A DNA stretch of 23,899 nt from a virus, in the IMG/VR virus record IMGVR_UViG_3300017989_000439, positions 1 through 23,899 of that record; one strand, 5' to 3'. The notes beneath the pieces were generated by a model that worked only from the letters and a program-made list of their open reading frames with translations, searched no databases and was not told where the DNA came from. Position 1 is the first letter of the stretch. The number at the start of each line of letters is the position of its first letter. A program made the translations under genes and the position numbers. Below are positions 1 to 20,089 of this stretch, piece after piece.

Positions 1-1092
1 AATGTTATGAGCATCAACGCAGACAACTTCAAACTTTCTCTGACTAAGTAGGATTTCAGTCGAGTCAAGTTTTATTCTATGGCCGTTAACATTAAGGAAC
101 CACATAGGAGGTTCAGTCAGAATCTTGGTGAGACCGTCGACTGTGATTCCGGGGTCATCTGATGATCGCTTAATTCCAAATTCTCTGCGCCCACAAATTG
201 AACGGTTACATGCTCCGACTATCGGCGGTTCTTTACACTTGTAAAAGTATTTCTTTTTGTTAAGCTGCTTGAGTAGGATAGTTACTTCGTTATCTGATAA
301 TGGTGGCTGAAGATATTTCTTATTCATTTCTCTGACATGGTCCTGCCAAAGATCGCCATAGCACAGTTTACAAAATACTCCGAGATTATAAAGTGCCTGA
401 TTTCTTGTGCCTTCCGGAAAACCTGATCGAGCTAAGTGCTGTAAACAGGGAGGTGCTCCTTCTAATGCTGGATCTTGTTTTCCTTCGATCTTAACAAGTT
501 CATCTTCAGTAACTGCTTTTGTTTCTGCGTACTCGAGAAACTTCTTAAGGTCCATGATAGCTTCGCCGTTTTCAATTGCATATCTAGTTGTTCTCTTGCC
601 TGCAAAGTACGGCATGTTAATCCATGAGCCTATGTCGTCTTCCGATGCTATTTCTGATTGCTTAGGGAATACTTCTACATTAGGATGTCCAAGCAGAATG
701 GACCATTCCATTAATTTATCTCTGACTATTGAAGCCTTGGCGGAACCGTTTATAAACAAGTACAGATGAGCACCACCAGATTTTGTTCTAGTAGTAACCA
801 ACGGCAGACTAGCTTCTGTAATTCTCTTTTCAAGATGCTCGAGGTTCAGATCATATACATCGACATCAATAGCACCGAATCTTGTCAGACCTTCATCGTC
901 CACTGGGACGATCCCTAACCCAGACTTACCGGTCAGGTGATCGTCCCATTTGCGGACAGTGACTTTATCCTTCAGAGTACGGGCTTGTCCTTGTACCTTG
1001 CCTCGTGCATCCTGTTTTCCGGTCTGATAAGTTCCATGAGCTCTGAGTAAGCCACGAAACCTTTCAAGAAAACGTTCAGCAACTGACGACAT
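1..1092 (-). CDS. DNA primase, archaeo-eukaryotic primase (AEP) type, C-terminus cut by window edge
   Basis: Likely makes RNA/DNA primers at the phage replication fork. I translated this frame by hand: it is open from the ATG at 1092 to base 1 (364 codons) with no stop, so the 3' end lies outside the window. Visible AEP marks are the metal-binding DVD triplet at residues 76-78 (FGAIDVDVYD) and the SGGAHLYLF strand at 105-113, whose His is the usual nucleotide-binding residue. A cysteine cluster follows at C286, C295 and C300 (CNRSICGRREFGI), of the kind seen after the catalytic domain in phage primases. The SD GGAGG lies just before the start, 15 bases after the previous gene. It is the last visible gene of the leftward replication operon, after the helicase and ssDNA-binding-like genes. 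A fused helicase or PriCT region beyond the edge cannot be seen. Confidence 0.8.
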   Translation of the reverse strand, partial: MSSVAERFLERFRGLLRAHGTYQTGKQDARGKVQGQARTLKDKVTVRKWDDHLTGKSGLGIVPVDDEGLTRFGAIDVDVYDLNLEHLEKRITEASLPLVTTRTKSGGAHLYLFINGSAKASIVRDKLMEWSILLGHPNVEVFPKQSEIASEDDIGSWINMPYFAGKRTTRYAIENGEAIMDLKKFLEYAETKAVTEDELVKIEGKQDPALEGAPPCLQHLARSGFPEGTRNQALYNLGVFCKLCYGDLWQDHVREMNKKYLQPPLSDNEVTILLKQLNKKKYFYKCKEPPIVGACNRSICGRREFGIKRSSDDPGITVDGLTKILTEPPMWFLNVNGHRIKLDSTEILLSQRKFEVVCVDAHNI

Positions 1093-9399: not shown

Positions 9400-9428
9400 A
9401 TTATATAATGTTATCTGTCTTTTGTATA
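9400..9428 (-). promoter_or_regulatory. Candidate promoter for the short leftward unit
   Basis: On the minus strand the -10 is TATAAT (9405-9400) and the -35 is TATACA (9428-9423, 4 of 6 to TTGACA), with a 17-base spacer. It lies about 50 bases upstream of the ATG at 9352, leaving a normal leader with an SD. Confidence 0.55.
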
Positions 9429-9602
9429 CTCCTATGGGTCAAAAAACGAGATAAAATGAAATTATTTTCTGCAGACACTTTTCACCCTGTGGTTACAGGA
9501 AACTCCTCTAAGGCTTATGGATAAAGGCTTCTGTTGATCTTGAGCCGTGACACATCAAAATCAAGTGTCACCCATGAAGTGTCACACCTGAAAGCCAGTG
9601 AT

Positions 9603-9624
9603 ACCAAGCCTCACGGAGCTTGGT
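9603..9624. repeat. 7-bp inverted repeat
   Basis: ACCAAGC (9603-9609) pairs with GCTTGGT (9618-9624) across an 8-base loop. The following sequence is T-rich but has no clean T run, so it is a weak terminator at best and could be a protein-binding palindrome within the array. Confidence 0.5.
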
Positions 9625-9645
9625 GACTTCATTATTATTTAAGGG

Positions 9646-9680
9646 AGTTATACGAAAAATTTTTTATTCTTTCATAACTC
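9646..9680. repeat. AT-rich inverted repeat, possible unwinding element
   Basis: GAGTTAT (9646-9652) and ATAACTC (9674-9680) are perfect arms. GAAA and TTTC extend the stem after a 2-base bulge. The loop is nearly all A and T (AAATTTTTTATT). Placed between the two halves of the TGTCAC array, it could be the easily melted part of an origin. Confidence 0.5.
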
Positions 9681-9869
9681 ATTTTGAAGCGTCACAAGTG
9701 TCACCAGACGCTGTAGACGTGATGGTTACTGGGTTTCAGTGTGACACTTCTCGAGACACTTCTTGTGACAGTACAAGGTTCAAGTGTCACCAGACAAAAA
9801 GCTAACAGGAAGGGTCTTTCCGCAGGCTTTTATTATCTGAATATACAAATCCACTCCCTGTTATCCAAT

Positions 9870-9875
9870 TATAAT
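9870..9875 (+). promoter_or_regulatory. Possible -10 box for rightward transcription
   Basis: TATAAT precedes the first rightward gene by 44 bases. I find no good -35 hexamer at 16-18 bases, so it would need an activator, for example a protein bound to the adjacent TGTCAC array. Treat as tentative. Confidence 0.3.
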
Positions 9876-9918: not shown

Positions 9919-10107
9919 ATGAGAAAAATCATTTCAATACTAATTCTAACTGTCGGAATACTGATCGCTGCGAGCTGCTCGGGTGATACCCCTGTTACTC
10001 CAAATCCTGATGCTCAAGTCGGTCCAGTCAGAGACGGTTACTCAGACACATTGTGTGTAAGATCCTATACTGACAAAGGCTGTTTCATTTGTCACGAGGT
10101 TAGGTAG
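9919..10107 (+). CDS. Small lipoprotein with a CXXCH motif
   Basis: 62 residues from the ATG at 9919. Another in-frame ATG at 9883 would add 12 residues that spoil the signal peptide. MRK and a hydrophobic stretch (4-17) lead to IAASC with C20 as the lipidation site; the +2 residue is Ser. The mature part is Pro/Asp/Gly-rich, then C46, C55 and C58-H59 (GCFICHE), i.e. a CXXCH sequence at the very end. The SD is weak and distant (AAGG near 9898). It is the first rightward gene, 2 bases ahead of the terminase small subunit. An early superinfection-exclusion or surface role is possible; the CXXCH could be chance or a metal or heme site. Confidence 0.6.
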   Translation: MRKIISILILTVGILIAASCSGDTPVTPNPDAQVGPVRDGYSDTLCVRSYTDKGCFICHEVR

Positions 10108-10109
10108 CA

Positions 10110-10595
10110 ATGACCGAGACTGGCGACAATGGCCACGATCCAAACTCCGAACCTTCGCGGTTTATGGGTAAGGATAAAGTAACCAAGCGACGTCAAGAAA
10201 TTGTCGCGGACATTCTTGCTAATCCAACCAGCTTTCCAGATGTCGAAGAGCTTGCAGCAAAACATGGTGTCTCAGTTAGGACCATCAGACGAGACATGCA
10301 ATCCGATGAAATTATTCTTGCGGTAGATTCTACCGTGGAGGAAAAACTCGATGGTGAATTGATCCATCATGCTTGGGCAAATATCAGGCATGATATTATT
10401 GTTAACAAAAATACAGATAGATCTGTGTGGCTAGTCAGTCACAGATCGAAGCAAGCTAACGACGATCGTTTGTTTGAGCAGTTCCAGCAGAGACTTGCTC
10501 AGGAATTTGCAGCCACCTCAGGCTTAGATCCAGCGGACTTCGATCCTAATGAGTACATTGGAATCAAAATCAGAAGACCTTCTTTGCCAAGCTGA
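10110..10595 (+). CDS. Putative terminase small subunit (HTH protein)
   Basis: 161 residues. Residues 43-64 form a helix-turn-helix (VEELAAKHGVSVRTIRRDM). The region before it is basic (KDKVTKRRQEIVADIL), and the C-terminal half is helical and acidic. Its position directly before, and overlapping by 47 bases, the large terminase gene is the main reason for the call: small subunits recognise the packaging site through an N-terminal HTH and oligomerise through the rest. GAGG lies shortly upstream of the ATG. A transcription regulator is the alternative. Confidence 0.7.
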   Translation: MTETGDNGHDPNSEPSRFMGKDKVTKRRQEIVADILANPTSFPDVEELAAKHGVSVRTIRRDMQSDEIILAVDSTVEEKLDGELIHHAWANIRHDIIVNKNTDRSVWLVSHRSKQANDDRLFEQFQQRLAQEFAATSGLDPADFDPNEYIGIKIRRPSLPS

Positions 10596-12006
10596 CGAAT
10601 TTGACTTTCCAGTCAAGCGTTGGGAATGGTCGATGATGAAGGAACTTGGCTTTGAACCGCATCCCGGTCAGATAACTTTTTACCAAGTTATTGAAATGTA
10701 CAGAAGAATATTCTGTGCCAGTGGCCGAAGATGGGGTAAGTCAATGTTCTTGTCTATTCTTATCTGGCTGCAATGGCAGCGAATGCAATGGACACTGCCT
10801 AATCCCAATGATCCTTTTCAATGGCCTAGAAAGATTTTACTGGTAGCACCTCAGGACGATCAGCTAGATGTTATCTTCGATCAAGTTGCTGGTTTCGCTG
10901 ATGATCGAGGTATCCCACTTACAGTTGATAGACGAGCCAAGGGCAGCAAGCAATTAAGAACTCCTTGGGGTAGCGTGTTCAGAGGTATGACCGGTAAGAA
11001 TCCGCGTGCTGGTCGAGGATATTCATGGCAATATGTTTTTGCTGACGAAGCTCCTCATGTAGATCATCCACGCCAGCTTTACTATGAAGTCTTGTTTCCT
11101 ACAATGGCTGAATCAAAAGGAAAGTTTGTAGGGATAGGAACACCTGATGCACCCGGAACCTTAGCTCATCGATGGAAATTAATGGGCGAGAATCCAGATA
11201 ATAAGGAATGGGGTTTTACTGCAGGTCCATCAGTTGAGAACTGGCATATTCCTTGGCTAGCAGATGAGATACAAGCTATGATCGATGCAGGTGTTCCAAT
11301 GGACATTATCGATCGCGAGTGGAATGCAAAGTTTGTGCCAAGGTCTGGTGTTGTTTATAAAGAAGCTCAGGACTGCATTATGTCTCTGACAGAGTGTAAG
11401 GAAATAGCTTCTCTTTTATTTAAGCAAGGAACTTGGTACCGGTTTATAGACTTCGGTTTCGCTAATCCTTTCGCTTGTTTGATTGTTTGCAAGCTAGGTG
11501 AGACTTGGTATATCTGGAATGAATACTATCGAGCCAGAAGAACACCGACCGAGCATGCGATGGTCTTAGCTCAGATGGACAATATCTTTCCGTTCGAAAT
11601 CAATGTTGCAGATCCAGCTGAGCCGGGAACTATTAAAACATTAGCTACATGGAGACATCCACAGACTAACGCCAGACTCGGTGGTCGATGGATAAGGAAC
11701 TTTGACAAGCCGCCGATTATTGACTCGATAGATTCAGTCAGAGCAAAGATGGCAATGGGACAAGTTAGAATTCATCCTAGGTGCGAGGAACTAATTGCTG
11801 AATACGGCATGGAGAAATATCCAGAACAAAGGAACATGCAGAACTTTTCAGAGAAACCGGTTGATGCAAATAACCATGGAACATCGGCTTTCAGATATGG
11901 TAACTGGTATGTCTTTGGTAAGGTTACTGACTTGACTCCGCCTAAGCCTTCTGAGTTTGATACAATGAGAGAATCAGATGCAGCATTACAGGGGTATCAT
12001 GTATGA
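10549..12006 (+). CDS. terL: Terminase large subunit (packaging ATPase/nuclease)
   Basis: 485 residues; powers DNA packaging into the prohead and cuts the concatemer. Walker A is GRRWGKS (59-65), Walker B is YVFADE (162-167, D166-E167), and the coupling motif is GIGTPD (195-200). The C-terminal RNase-H-like nuclease shows FIDFG (D301), VADPAEPG (D355) and VDANNHG (D439), the three expected acidic ligands. The length is normal for the Mu gp28/Terminase_6 kind. The start has no clear SD and lies inside the small-subunit gene, so coupling probably drives it. The stop overlaps the portal start as ATGA. Confidence 0.93.
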   Translation: MSTLESKSEDLLCQADEFDFPVKRWEWSMMKELGFEPHPGQITFYQVIEMYRRIFCASGRRWGKSMFLSILIWLQWQRMQWTLPNPNDPFQWPRKILLVAPQDDQLDVIFDQVAGFADDRGIPLTVDRRAKGSKQLRTPWGSVFRGMTGKNPRAGRGYSWQYVFADEAPHVDHPRQLYYEVLFPTMAESKGKFVGIGTPDAPGTLAHRWKLMGENPDNKEWGFTAGPSVENWHIPWLADEIQAMIDAGVPMDIIDREWNAKFVPRSGVVYKEAQDCIMSLTECKEIASLLFKQGTWYRFIDFGFANPFACLIVCKLGETWYIWNEYYRARRTPTEHAMVLAQMDNIFPFEINVADPAEPGTIKTLATWRHPQTNARLGGRWIRNFDKPPIIDSIDSVRAKMAMGQVRIHPRCEELIAEYGMEKYPEQRNMQNFSEKPVDANNHGTSAFRYGNWYVFGKVTDLTPPKPSEFDTMRESDAALQGYHV

Positions 12007-14825
12007 CAGACACACCTCAACATAGTAAGCAGTTAATGAAGGAATTATCCAACGTTAATACTGCCCACGATGTCTTCTCACGGATGACTGCTTCACGGTC
12101 TCCTGATAAAATTATTTTACAAAGAGGACGAGGGGTACTTGATTATTACGATGTAATGGTTGATGCTGATCCTGTATTAGCTGGTCTGTTAGAAACTCGA
12201 GTTGATGCTGTGGCTGGTCTTGGTTGGGATGTAGTCTCTGCGTCAGATGATGATAGCGATGAAAAGATTGCCGAGTTTATTCGCTTTGGTTTCGGTCAGC
12301 TTAAACGATTTAAACAAGACCTTGAACAAATACTTTCTGCAGCTCGAACCGGTTTCTCAGTATGCGAAATAGTCTGGGACTTAGTTACATGGGAAGGTCA
12401 GCAAAAGTGGGTACCGGTTAAACTGCTTTCGAGAAGGCCTGAGCGATTTACTTTTGATGAAGAATATAATCTGAGACTTAAGACACGGACCAATTCATGG
12501 GATGGCGAAGAACTTCCTCCAAATAAGTTTATCCATCATATCTTCAGGCCAAGGTACGAGAATCCTTATGGCACAAGTCTGTGCACAAGTGTCTGGTGGA
12601 TGTGGTGGTTTAAACACCATGGAATGGCATGGTGGCTGAAGGCTGCAGAACGTGGTGCAGTTGTTACTCCTATTGGATACTATCCAGAAGGCTGGAATGA
12701 AAATCAGATAGAAGACTTTAAGAAATTCCTCAGAGGCATTATGGGTGATTCCTATGGCGCCTTACCTGAAGGATCTAACGTAGACTTTCCTCAGATTAAA
12801 ATTGATCCTGAGTTTGCATCAGCTTTACGAGAAGCTTGTAACGAGGAAATGATTTATCGTGTATTAGGTGGCACACAGTCTTCAGCAGGTAATGAAGGAT
12901 CAAGGGCAAAAGCTCAGGTCCATGAACACAGATTCCAAGAACGTAAAGAAGCTGATGCTGAATCTGTAATGGCTACTATCAATGACCAGTTGGTTAAGCC
13001 GATGGTCCTGCTTAATTTTCCTGAACCACAGGACTATCCTTTCTGGCGGTTGTTATATGATCCTGAGAAAGATACAAGTGCACTTGCTGATGTTCTTATC
13101 AAAGCTGCAAAGATTAAGATTCCAGTAGCTGTTGGTGATGCTGCTGAGATGTTGAATTTGCCGCTTGCTGAAGAGGGTGAACAGTTAATTGAAATGACTC
13201 AGGCACCAAGTCCGTTTATGCAGGATGTTCCTGCTGGTAAAAAGAAAGATGATCCTCAGGATCCAGATGAAGAACCGGATGATAATCCAGATGAGGGGGA
13301 AGCTGTAAACCCTAAGATATACCGCCTGAGTTTCTCGGCTCGTAAAAGAGCGGCTAAGTATATTGACAATCAACAGAAGCTGATTGACGGTGCCATCAAA
13401 AAGAGTAAGCCGGTTATGGATGATATTCTCAAGCAGGTTAAGTCATGGGTTAAACGACAGAAGACTATTGAGAACGCTGCCGAGAATGCTAACAGTTTTA
13501 AACTGGATTCTGATAAGCTTGCTGCCTATCTGCTTGATGCCCGTTATTATTCTATGCTAATGGGTTTCCATGACTTTACCAATGAGCCCGATGCCACCGT
13601 CAGGTTTAATCTTAAGAAATGGTTCTATCAGAAATTTATAGCTAAGTATGAATTCGAGCCTCTGCCATTTCAGGATGCTATTAAATTATTTGAAGATCGG
13701 TCTGTTATGGATCGTGAAGATTTTGATACTCTATTATCATTTGAAAGAAGGAACGCATTGACAGCCGCTGGTATGTCTGCCGAAACAATTGAGCATACAG
13801 TCCGAAGTCTTTTGGTAAGTGCTTTAAAAGAAGGTATGACATTACCTGATTTCATAGGCAACTTACAATTGCCAAATGTAGTCCATGCAGAAAATATCTT
13901 CAGGACTAACATGAGTAGTGCCTATAACAACGGACACATGGAAGGTATGTTTTATCCGGGTTATGAAGACACAATTGCAGCTATCGAATTTATAGCGATC
14001 ATGGATGGCCGCGAGACTGACATTTGTCGCGAGAGACATGGCAAACTGTACAAGCTAGAAGATCTTAAGACTGCAGGTGTTGCACCACCTCTTCACTTCC
14101 AATGCAGATCAACTATAGTAGAAGTCTTTGCTGATGAATTAGAGGGTCGAGAAATTTCGGGTACTCCCTCTGTTCCTGCACAATCTGGCTTTGGAGAATT
14201 TCAACCAGTCTTAGAACATCCGCCTGAACCTCAGTCAGGTATAGATATTTTTGTTAGTATGGTTCCTCACCTTGAGAAGCAACCAGATTTTGTAAAAGAG
14301 ACTTGGGAAGAAATACGAAAATTAGCAGAGAAATCTGGTACTGGATTAGAAGAGATTGAGCATGGAGCTATATTTGACAGAGATGGTTTTCTACTTGAAG
14401 AAACAGGTATTGTTAAAGGCGATCATTCAAGTGTAAGATTACCTATGCCTGTCGGTGCTGAAGAAACAATTATTCATGAGTATCCGGGTTTGATGACTAC
14501 ACATTCTCATCCATTAGATACAACATTCTCGGCCGAAGATATGATTAACATGTGGGCTAACCCGATGGAAACTGTATCTGTGGTTGTAGGTGAATATTCA
14601 ATACAGGCTCTTAAATACCGCGGCTTTGATGTACAGACTGAAGTAATGAGTAATCCGATTAAATATCAAGCTGAGGTACAAAAGATATATGATGCGGTAA
14701 CTGAGATAATGGAGAAGAGAGATGTAGGCATTAGTGACGCAATGGAAATCTATATTAATGAACATCCAGAAGACTGGCAGTATCAGCGAATTGGCTGGGA
14801 TGAGGTGTTAGATTATGGCGGATAA
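12003..14825 (+). CDS. Portal (DUF935/Mu gp29-like) fused to MuF and a JAMM/JAB-like C-terminal domain
   Basis: 940 residues, about twice a normal portal. Residues 1-400 are a Mu gp29-like portal (DYYDVMVDADPVLAGLLETR; FRPRYENPYGTSL at 181-193; VLGGTQSS at 287-294). An acidic Asp/Pro linker (415-434) follows. Residues 440-715 are a MuF minor head domain: AENIFRTNMSSAYNNGHMEG (629-648), then ICRERHGKLY (C675, H679) and PPLHFQCR (695-702). A Pro-rich linker leads to a third domain (745-940) containing H834-S-H836-P then S843-x2-D846, with E786 about 48 residues earlier, the layout of a JAMM/MPN metalloprotease. The H-to-S spacing is six residues, one shorter than the classical seven. Portal and MuF form the DNA gate and prohead-initiation complex; the third domain could be an injected or processing enzyme. 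Confidence 0.85.
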   Translation: MTDTPQHSKQLMKELSNVNTAHDVFSRMTASRSPDKIILQRGRGVLDYYDVMVDADPVLAGLLETRVDAVAGLGWDVVSASDDDSDEKIAEFIRFGFGQLKRFKQDLEQILSAARTGFSVCEIVWDLVTWEGQQKWVPVKLLSRRPERFTFDEEYNLRLKTRTNSWDGEELPPNKFIHHIFRPRYENPYGTSLCTSVWWMWWFKHHGMAWWLKAAERGAVVTPIGYYPEGWNENQIEDFKKFLRGIMGDSYGALPEGSNVDFPQIKIDPEFASALREACNEEMIYRVLGGTQSSAGNEGSRAKAQVHEHRFQERKEADAESVMATINDQLVKPMVLLNFPEPQDYPFWRLLYDPEKDTSALADVLIKAAKIKIPVAVGDAAEMLNLPLAEEGEQLIEMTQAPSPFMQDVPAGKKKDDPQDPDEEPDDNPDEGEAVNPKIYRLSFSARKRAAKYIDNQQKLIDGAIKKSKPVMDDILKQVKSWVKRQKTIENAAENANSFKLDSDKLAAYLLDARYYSMLMGFHDFTNEPDATVRFNLKKWFYQKFIAKYEFEPLPFQDAIKLFEDRSVMDREDFDTLLSFERRNALTAAGMSAETIEHTVRSLLVSALKEGMTLPDFIGNLQLPNVVHAENIFRTNMSSAYNNGHMEGMFYPGYEDTIAAIEFIAIMDGRETDICRERHGKLYKLEDLKTAGVAPPLHFQCRSTIVEVFADELEGREISGTPSVPAQSGFGEFQPVLEHPPEPQSGIDIFVSMVPHLEKQPDFVKETWEEIRKLAEKSGTGLEEIEHGAIFDRDGFLLEETGIVKGDHSSVRLPMPVGAEETIIHEYPGLMTTHSHPLDTTFSAEDMINMWANPMETVSVVVGEYSIQALKYRGFDVQTEVMSNPIKYQAEVQKIYDAVTEIMEKRDVGISDAMEIYINEHPEDWQYQRIGWDEVLDYGG

Positions 14826-19655: not shown

Positions 19656-20089
19656 CAGATTTAAACGACTATCGTCCGGTGCGAGTTATCGCTGGTCTGT
19701 CTGTTGCGGGTGATGACCTCAAAACACTTGAGGAAAGTTATCCGAACGGAGAGCCAACGGAAGTCAGTAGTCATGGAGCAAAAACGGGTACTGTCTCTCG
19801 CTCATATAAGCCGGGACAGGTGATTGATGCTCCGACACCGGAAGAACGTGTAATCTTTGATCTGGCTCCTGATTCTGTGGTTGCTGATATTCCTCAGCAC
19901 GATGAAGGATTTGATGATCCACGTTCCGGCTTGGCTCGATCGCGTGCCTCGTCTGAACTTGGTCGTCATAAGTTCATCATGGAAACCACAGCCCGAGCCA
20001 ACAAGGCGGCTACTTCTGCTAAGCCGAAGAAGAAATCTTCTAAGAAAAAATCAGCGGATAAATCCACGAAGAAAGGAGGCGACAGATAA
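19652..20089 (+). CDS. Unknown tail-module protein with lysine-rich tail
   Basis: 145 residues. The N-terminal 80 residues are small and beta-rich (VRVIAGLSVAGDDLKTL; SRSYKPGQVIDAPTPEE). From 115 onward the protein is helical and very basic, ending with many K/S repeats (KPKKKSSKKKSADKSTKK). It overlaps the previous gene as ATGA and carries the next gene's SD (AAAGGAGG) in its last codons. Positive tails of this kind bind nucleic acid or acidic surfaces. The position suggests a neck or tail-assembly factor. Not recognised. Confidence 0.55.
   Translation: MTDLNDYRPVRVIAGLSVAGDDLKTLEESYPNGEPTEVSSHGAKTGTVSRSYKPGQVIDAPTPEERVIFDLAPDSVVADIPQHDEGFDDPRSGLARSRASSELGRHKFIMETTARANKAATSAKPKKKSSKKKSADKSTKKGGDR

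Follow-up and report, generated by a model that had tools for sequence, protein, structure and literature searches.

The window, the whole stretch of DNA analysed here, is a linear 23.9-kb IMG/VR fragment (23,899 nucleotides) of a tailed phage and not a full genome. Its genes diverge from one intergenic region (Table 1). The leftward genes (9373 to 1) encode the thymidylate synthase ThyX, an HNH nuclease, an amidase, an SNF2-type helicase, phrog_2378, phrog_2402 and a truncated primase, and the rightward genes, from 9922, encode a 61-residue ORF, the terminase small (TerS) and large (TerL) subunits, a Mu-type portal fused to MuF, a protease and a capsid protein. In a profile alignment, the primase family (window 1–1092) matched two AEP domains of known structure, 7nqd and 7nqf (E = 5e-11). 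An SF3 helicase (PF19263, PF13148) was detected neither in the window nor in the sampled relatives sharing its replication module. The portal–MuF fusion (12003–14825) consists of 940 residues, for which Pfam yielded Portal_Mu and Phage_Mu_F only; its C-terminal region HSHPLDTTFSAED resembles, by eye, a JAMM metalloprotease motif.

A dense array of 9-bp repeats was located between the two gene blocks. It is flanked by the 105-residue ORF on one side and by the 61-residue ORF and TerS on the other, and is not directly 3' of a Rep or primase–helicase gene. The distance from the end of the array to the start of TerS was 320 bp, and the arrays of relatives were found at 0–181 bp from TerS.

Table 1. 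Features of the window, and arrays of two cultured relatives (locus given before the coordinates).
Feature	Coordinates	Strand	Remarks
AEP-type primase, phrog_21866	1..1092	-	cut by the left end of the window
First leftward ORF, 105 aa	9035..9352	-	from ATG after AGGAG; no family
Promoter-like TATACA-17-TATAAT	9400..9428	-	leftward early genes; consensus match only
Iteron, 1 mismatch (ATGTGTCAC)	9547..9555	-	
Iteron AAGTGTCAC, exact	9563..9571	+	
Large inverted repeat, left arm GAAGTGTCACACCTGAAAGCCAGT	9576..9599		pairs with 9728-9750
Iteron AAGTGTCAC, exact	9577..9585	+	
Hairpin CCAAGC..GCTTGG	9602..9625	+	left part of array; terminator-like by consensus only
AT-rich core	9645..9680		candidate melting element; contains A5T6 (9655-9665) and the inverted repeat GAGTTAT/ATAACTC
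Iteron, 1 mismatch (AAGCGTCAC)	9687..9695	+	abuts the 9696 site, forming an 18-bp tandem
Iteron AAGTGTCAC, exact	9696..9704	+	
Large inverted repeat, right arm	9728..9750		holds the 9741 site
Iteron AAGTGTCAC, exact	9741..9749	-	inside the right arm (9728-9750)
Iteron, 1 mismatch (AAGTGTCTC)	9753..9761	-	
TGTCAC core	9765..9770	-	
Iteron AAGTGTCAC, exact	9782..9790	+	
-10-like TATAAT, without good -35	9870..9875	+	ahead of rightward genes; by eye
61-aa ORF	9922..10107	+	between array and TerS; lipoprotein-like N terminus by eye
Probable TerS	10110..10595	+	phrog_24579, weak, E 0.0027; DeoR-like HTH
TerL	10549..12006	+	
PMBT28 arrays	L488 about 19664-19757; L491 1644-1902		
Kokobel2 arrays	L487 19705-19799; L492 14182-14428		

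Sites and symmetry of the array

The array spans 9547–9790 and consists of five exact copies of AAGTGTCAC, three copies with one mismatch and one bare TGTCAC core. A preliminary description of this DNA had reported five exact 9-mers and further cores in both orientations within about 250 bases, a 15-bp exact duplicate, and an AT-rich inverted repeat flanked by the array. All of these were found: the sites were located with their strands, the duplicate (CAAGTGTCACCAGAC) lies at 9695–9709 and 9781–9795, and the sites form a left set (9547–9585) and a right set (9687–9790) around the inverted repeat, whose halves are GAGTTAT (9645–9651) and ATAACTC (9674–9680). The AT-rich stretch between the two sets (9627–9684) gives the array an anatomy of the PICI/SaPI type. 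The pairing of the large arms is complete except for one 1-nt gap and one mismatch, and these arms and the AT-rich inverted repeat have a common axis at 9663, the centre of which is the A5T6 core. The observed axis score was reached by 3/500 shuffles in which the iterons were kept. Single-stranded DNA folding of the stretch was unusually good (z −8) because of the inverted repeats in the array, and no Rfam match was obtained for it.

The expected number of exact AAGTGTCAC copies was approximately 0.0025 per 250 bases against the five observed, in line with the earlier estimate of well under one. Seven of the 19 TGTCAC of the window were within the array, and the density elsewhere was 0.13 per 250 bases, so that the equal density throughout the fragment by which the preliminary description could have been contradicted was not seen. 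None of the 60 simulated windows contained a 9-mer above 3 copies per 250 bases. The Poisson probability of the AAGTGTCAC clustering was ~1e-15, or ~1e-8 once all 9-mers and positions were allowed for, and the array was the only one of its kind in the 23.9-kb fragment. That it is a chance or low-complexity repeat without function is hardly credible, being refuted by these probabilities and by the independent recurrence of AAGTGTCAC arrays in unrelated phages. The array was confirmed as a genuine feature of the window.

The same repeats in other phages

When IMG/VR was scanned for two copies of AAGTGTCAC within 30 bases, at least 120 stretches were returned, compared with 49 for the reversed-motif control; pairs of the one-base variant AAGTGTAAC likewise gave at least 120 stretches. 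At least four exact AAGTGTCAC within 400 bases were present in 39/120 stretches among the matches listed and in 3/49 control stretches; one control stretch (L154) itself has a repeat array (GTGAACA) 5' of a TerS. The GC content of array-bearing contigs ranged from 29 to 67%. In most genomes checked, one cluster holds all copies, and the spacings between neighbours in arrays among the matches listed were often 9, 11–12 or 20–21 bases.

Neighbouring gene families were named by Pfam and PHROGs. Dereplication of the matches listed was incomplete (three related loci, for instance, have the identical 323-bp distance), so that the counts are not all independent. Among these matches, 57 AAGTGTCAC arrays with at least three copies were divided into 25 on the helicase side, 12 on the terminase side and 20 unlabelled. 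Thus 25/37 labelled arrays adjoin SF3/D5, DUF5906, DUF3987 or prim-pol helicase genes (mostly within ~200 bp; 14 on the 3' side of the gene, 11 on the 5' side), and 12/37 are directly 5' of TerS or TerL. Of the AAGTGTAAC arrays among the matches listed, 23 were at 0–181 bases 5' of TerS and none on its 3' side, one was 5' of TerL, six adjoined an SF3 helicase and 21 were unlabelled, which gives a terminase-side share of 24/30. For both motifs together, the terminase-side arrays among the matches listed were on the 5' side in 36/36 cases. Three loci, L013, L047 and L110, were excluded because their repeats are periodic ones within ORFs, although the last two are still counted as unlabelled.

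The arrays tended to have AT-rich interiors, 34/47 and 29/39 of those among the matches listed being in the lowest quarter of contig spans, as is partly expected for any intergenic stretch. The A5T6/TCTTTCAT core was common to only a few arrays; a search for a second motif common to all arrays found none, TTTTTT-TCTTTC occurring in a few only. In Microbacterium phage Fizzles, one AAGTGTCAC array is beside the replicative helicase gene at 46 kb, and TerL is at 6.5 kb. The array-adjacent helicase of L018 matched the PDB entry 7ola (E 6.5e-5), which was deposited under the name 'DNA primase' and which we take to be SaPI5 Rep. A literature search for the motif string returned no relevant paper.

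Its repeats place the window array in a family of arrays found in many unrelated phages beside a replication-helicase or packaging gene. The occurrence of the 9-mer in both niches suggests that they may share one type of binding domain for it. Apart from phages, dispersed chromosomal copies of a AAGTGTCACAAGTGTCAC array were observed in Bacteroides (L177–L222), at about 16 loci in sp. 224 and 3 in sp. 519; those of sp. 224 are within an element of ~280 bases with copies 73–85% identical. Their neighbours are housekeeping genes (RmuC, DnaG and malic enzyme), so they are not phage origins in any obvious way.

Arrays in relatives with the same replication module

Alignment of the primase defined 80 loci as replication-module relatives. 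No AAGTGTCAC array of at least three copies was found in their fetched loci. Copies of AAGTGTCA were found 5' of the TerS of contig G016, and several relatives had arrays built of a different repeat: AAGTGTAAC in L256, GTGTAACG in L241, AGGTAACA in L280 and L303, ACGTAACA in L296 and GGTGTAACC in L284. At least five repeat copies were present upstream of TerS in 8/21 module relatives, compared with 2/559 control gene starts. The relative nearest in its replication module, L224 (53% to the primase of the window), has the same layout, with early genes leftward, an array, and TerS, TerL and portal–MuF rightward. At the homologous place, its array is made of another repeat, ATATCAGG, around AAAAATTTTTTCTTTCAT, and this place and the AT-rich core of the window have AAAAATTTTTT..TCTTTCAT in common. 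Across relatives, the repeats at this place thus differ: the repeat drifts, and its location is kept.

The primases of Salmonella phage PMBT28 and Providencia phage Kokobel2 belong to the same family as that of the window. Each contains two arrays of its own repeat (CGTTCCAT and GGTTCCAT, respectively), of which one directly precedes the AEP primase on its 5' side and the second occupies an intergenic gap ~2–4 kb ahead of the terminase genes. An array 5' of the AEP primase was not the rule, being found in 0/78 metagenomic relatives. A search for a close relative spanning the array locus found none, and L004 (75% in MCP) begins inside TerL; for TerS, TerL and the 105/112-residue ORF, IMG/VR and the phage records likewise yielded no close relative. 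In two other phages, repeats were observed at terminase genes: the cultured Pelagibacter phage HTVC023P has five CTAGGAAA in one orientation 5' of TerS (L490 11680–11765), and phage DSL-LC04 has GC-rich repeats (ACGGCCC/GGGCCGT) immediately 5' of TerL (L007 38350–38642), possibly a drifted array.

Candidate functions of the array

The preliminary description had left two functions side by side, an operator cluster and an iteron-type origin. The origin was the better supported of the two, and the operator is still a candidate. We give about an even chance to the reading that the array is the iteron-type replication origin of the phage at the early/late boundary. This reading was preferred because the array has the anatomy of SF3-initiator and PICI origins, and since arrays of the family adjoin a replication-helicase or a packaging gene, a replication start site is the most likely role of the window array. 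The sites, the dyad, the AT-rich core and the position were observed in the window. In other phages, these sites were seen to accompany replicative SF3/prim-pol helicase genes, an association that was found by motif search and so bears on the motif elsewhere and not on the window itself. The arrays just 5' of a same-family primase in PMBT28 and Kokobel2 also argue for an origin. Against it, many arrays are strictly 5' of terminase genes, which is not required of an origin, and neither the window nor the sampled module relatives yielded an SF3 helicase that could act as initiator. A switch of cumulative GC skew at 9.6 kb does exist, but it is uninformative because the direction of transcription switches at the same place; in seven array-bearing contigs of other phages, the turning point of the skew did not track the array.

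PICI origins consist of two iteron sets flanking an AT-rich stretch, a possible melting site (PMC6092414). The window array is built similarly, with a set of short iterons on each side of an AT-rich stretch, and D5/SaPI5-Rep-like helicase genes of other phages have AAGTGTCAC at their 3' end. It differs from SaPI/PICI origins, in which the iterons are bound by Rep and are 3' of pri-rep, in being 5' of terminase genes and in belonging to a module with an AEP primase, without an SF3 helicase or a recognised Rep. In SCCmec, Cch2, a D5-type SF3 helicase, binds AAGTG iterons beside its gene via its C-terminal domain (PMC7581432). AAGTG is the first half of AAGTGTCAC, and the combination of a D5-type helicase with a site beside its gene is the same; however, the putative SCCmec origin, which belongs to a different element, has three repeats of 5 nt within 23 bp, and the remainder of the repeat is not the same.

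For the window phage, we infer initiator binding, melting and origin function. The origin would lie where the leftward early/replication genes diverge from the rightward terminase/structural genes, and a putative phage-encoded initiator would bind both 9-bp site sets, whose sites are in both orientations, with roughly one or two helical turns between those that are close together. The initiator complex might then assemble around the dyad at 9663 and open the A5T6/AT-rich core between the sets, allowing the helicase and the AEP primase to load.

It is unlikely that the array instead serves as an operator or enhancer for a phage transcription regulator acting on divergent early and late promoters. 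Its position between the leftward promoter-like site and the −10-like site, which is without a −35, ahead of the late genes would suit such a role, as would the same-repeat arrays of PMBT28 and Kokobel2 in two gaps preceding gene blocks and the array of L096, which directly adjoins a gene whose PHROG family has the annotation transcription antiterminator. However, no repressor gene was recognised in the window, array-bearing phages had no regulator in common (the widest ORF cluster covered 11/40 loci), and tandem spacing of 9 bp with two-sided sets round an AT-rich core is usual for initiators and less so for regulators.

A third reading, missed by the preliminary description, is suggested by many relatives and arises because the array sits 5' of TerS: a cos/pac-like packaging start, at which the TerS encoded downstream would bind the repeats and TerL would cut nearby. 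We regard it as possible, though doubtful. In lambda, cosB lies ahead of Nu1, and the pac site of P1 is flanked by repeats. In all three, short repeated sites stand directly 5' of the TerS gene or inside it; the window array differs in its dyad symmetry, at odds with a directional process, and in that its repeats are also found at helicase genes of other phages. The distance of 320 bp to TerS, the enrichment of repeats upstream of TerS in module relatives, and the AAGTGTAAC arrays confined to the 5' side of TerS among the matches listed are consistent with packaging. Related TerS are, moreover, accompanied by differing repeats (GTGTAACG, TGTAACAA, GTGTCACA, AGGTAACA, CGTAACA and GTGAACA), as a co-evolving binder would be; on the other hand, the TerS of L224, which matches the same PHROG family as that of the window, is accompanied by an unrelated repeat, and a single repeat is found with TerS belonging to different families. 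In addition, the site is not confined to a packaging context: PMBT28 and Kokobel2 have an array 5' of the primase, and the same 9-mers are also found at SF3 helicase genes that lie a long way from TerL, as in Fizzles. How TerS recognises DNA was described as still unanswered in a review (PMC9611059).

A broader proposal, which we consider rather improbable, is that the iteron code AAGTGT[C/A]AC and its drifted forms constitute a combined control site, movable between a helicase/primase gene and terS, with the starts of replication and packaging sharing a cis site or a binding fold. The two fixed neighbourhoods, at the SF3 helicase and 5' of terS, raise the question whether these starts are coupled via the same repeats. 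To our knowledge, replication origins are not known for most uncultured phages. An iteron family recognisable at GC contents from 29 to 67% would allow origins to be called in metagenomes from sequence alone, and, if TerS is the binder, the TerS genes whose neighbouring repeats differ would offer a good entry to the study of DNA recognition. Separately, the TerL ORF of L009 (968–2623) was found to contain intein/HINT-type matches at residues 381–515.
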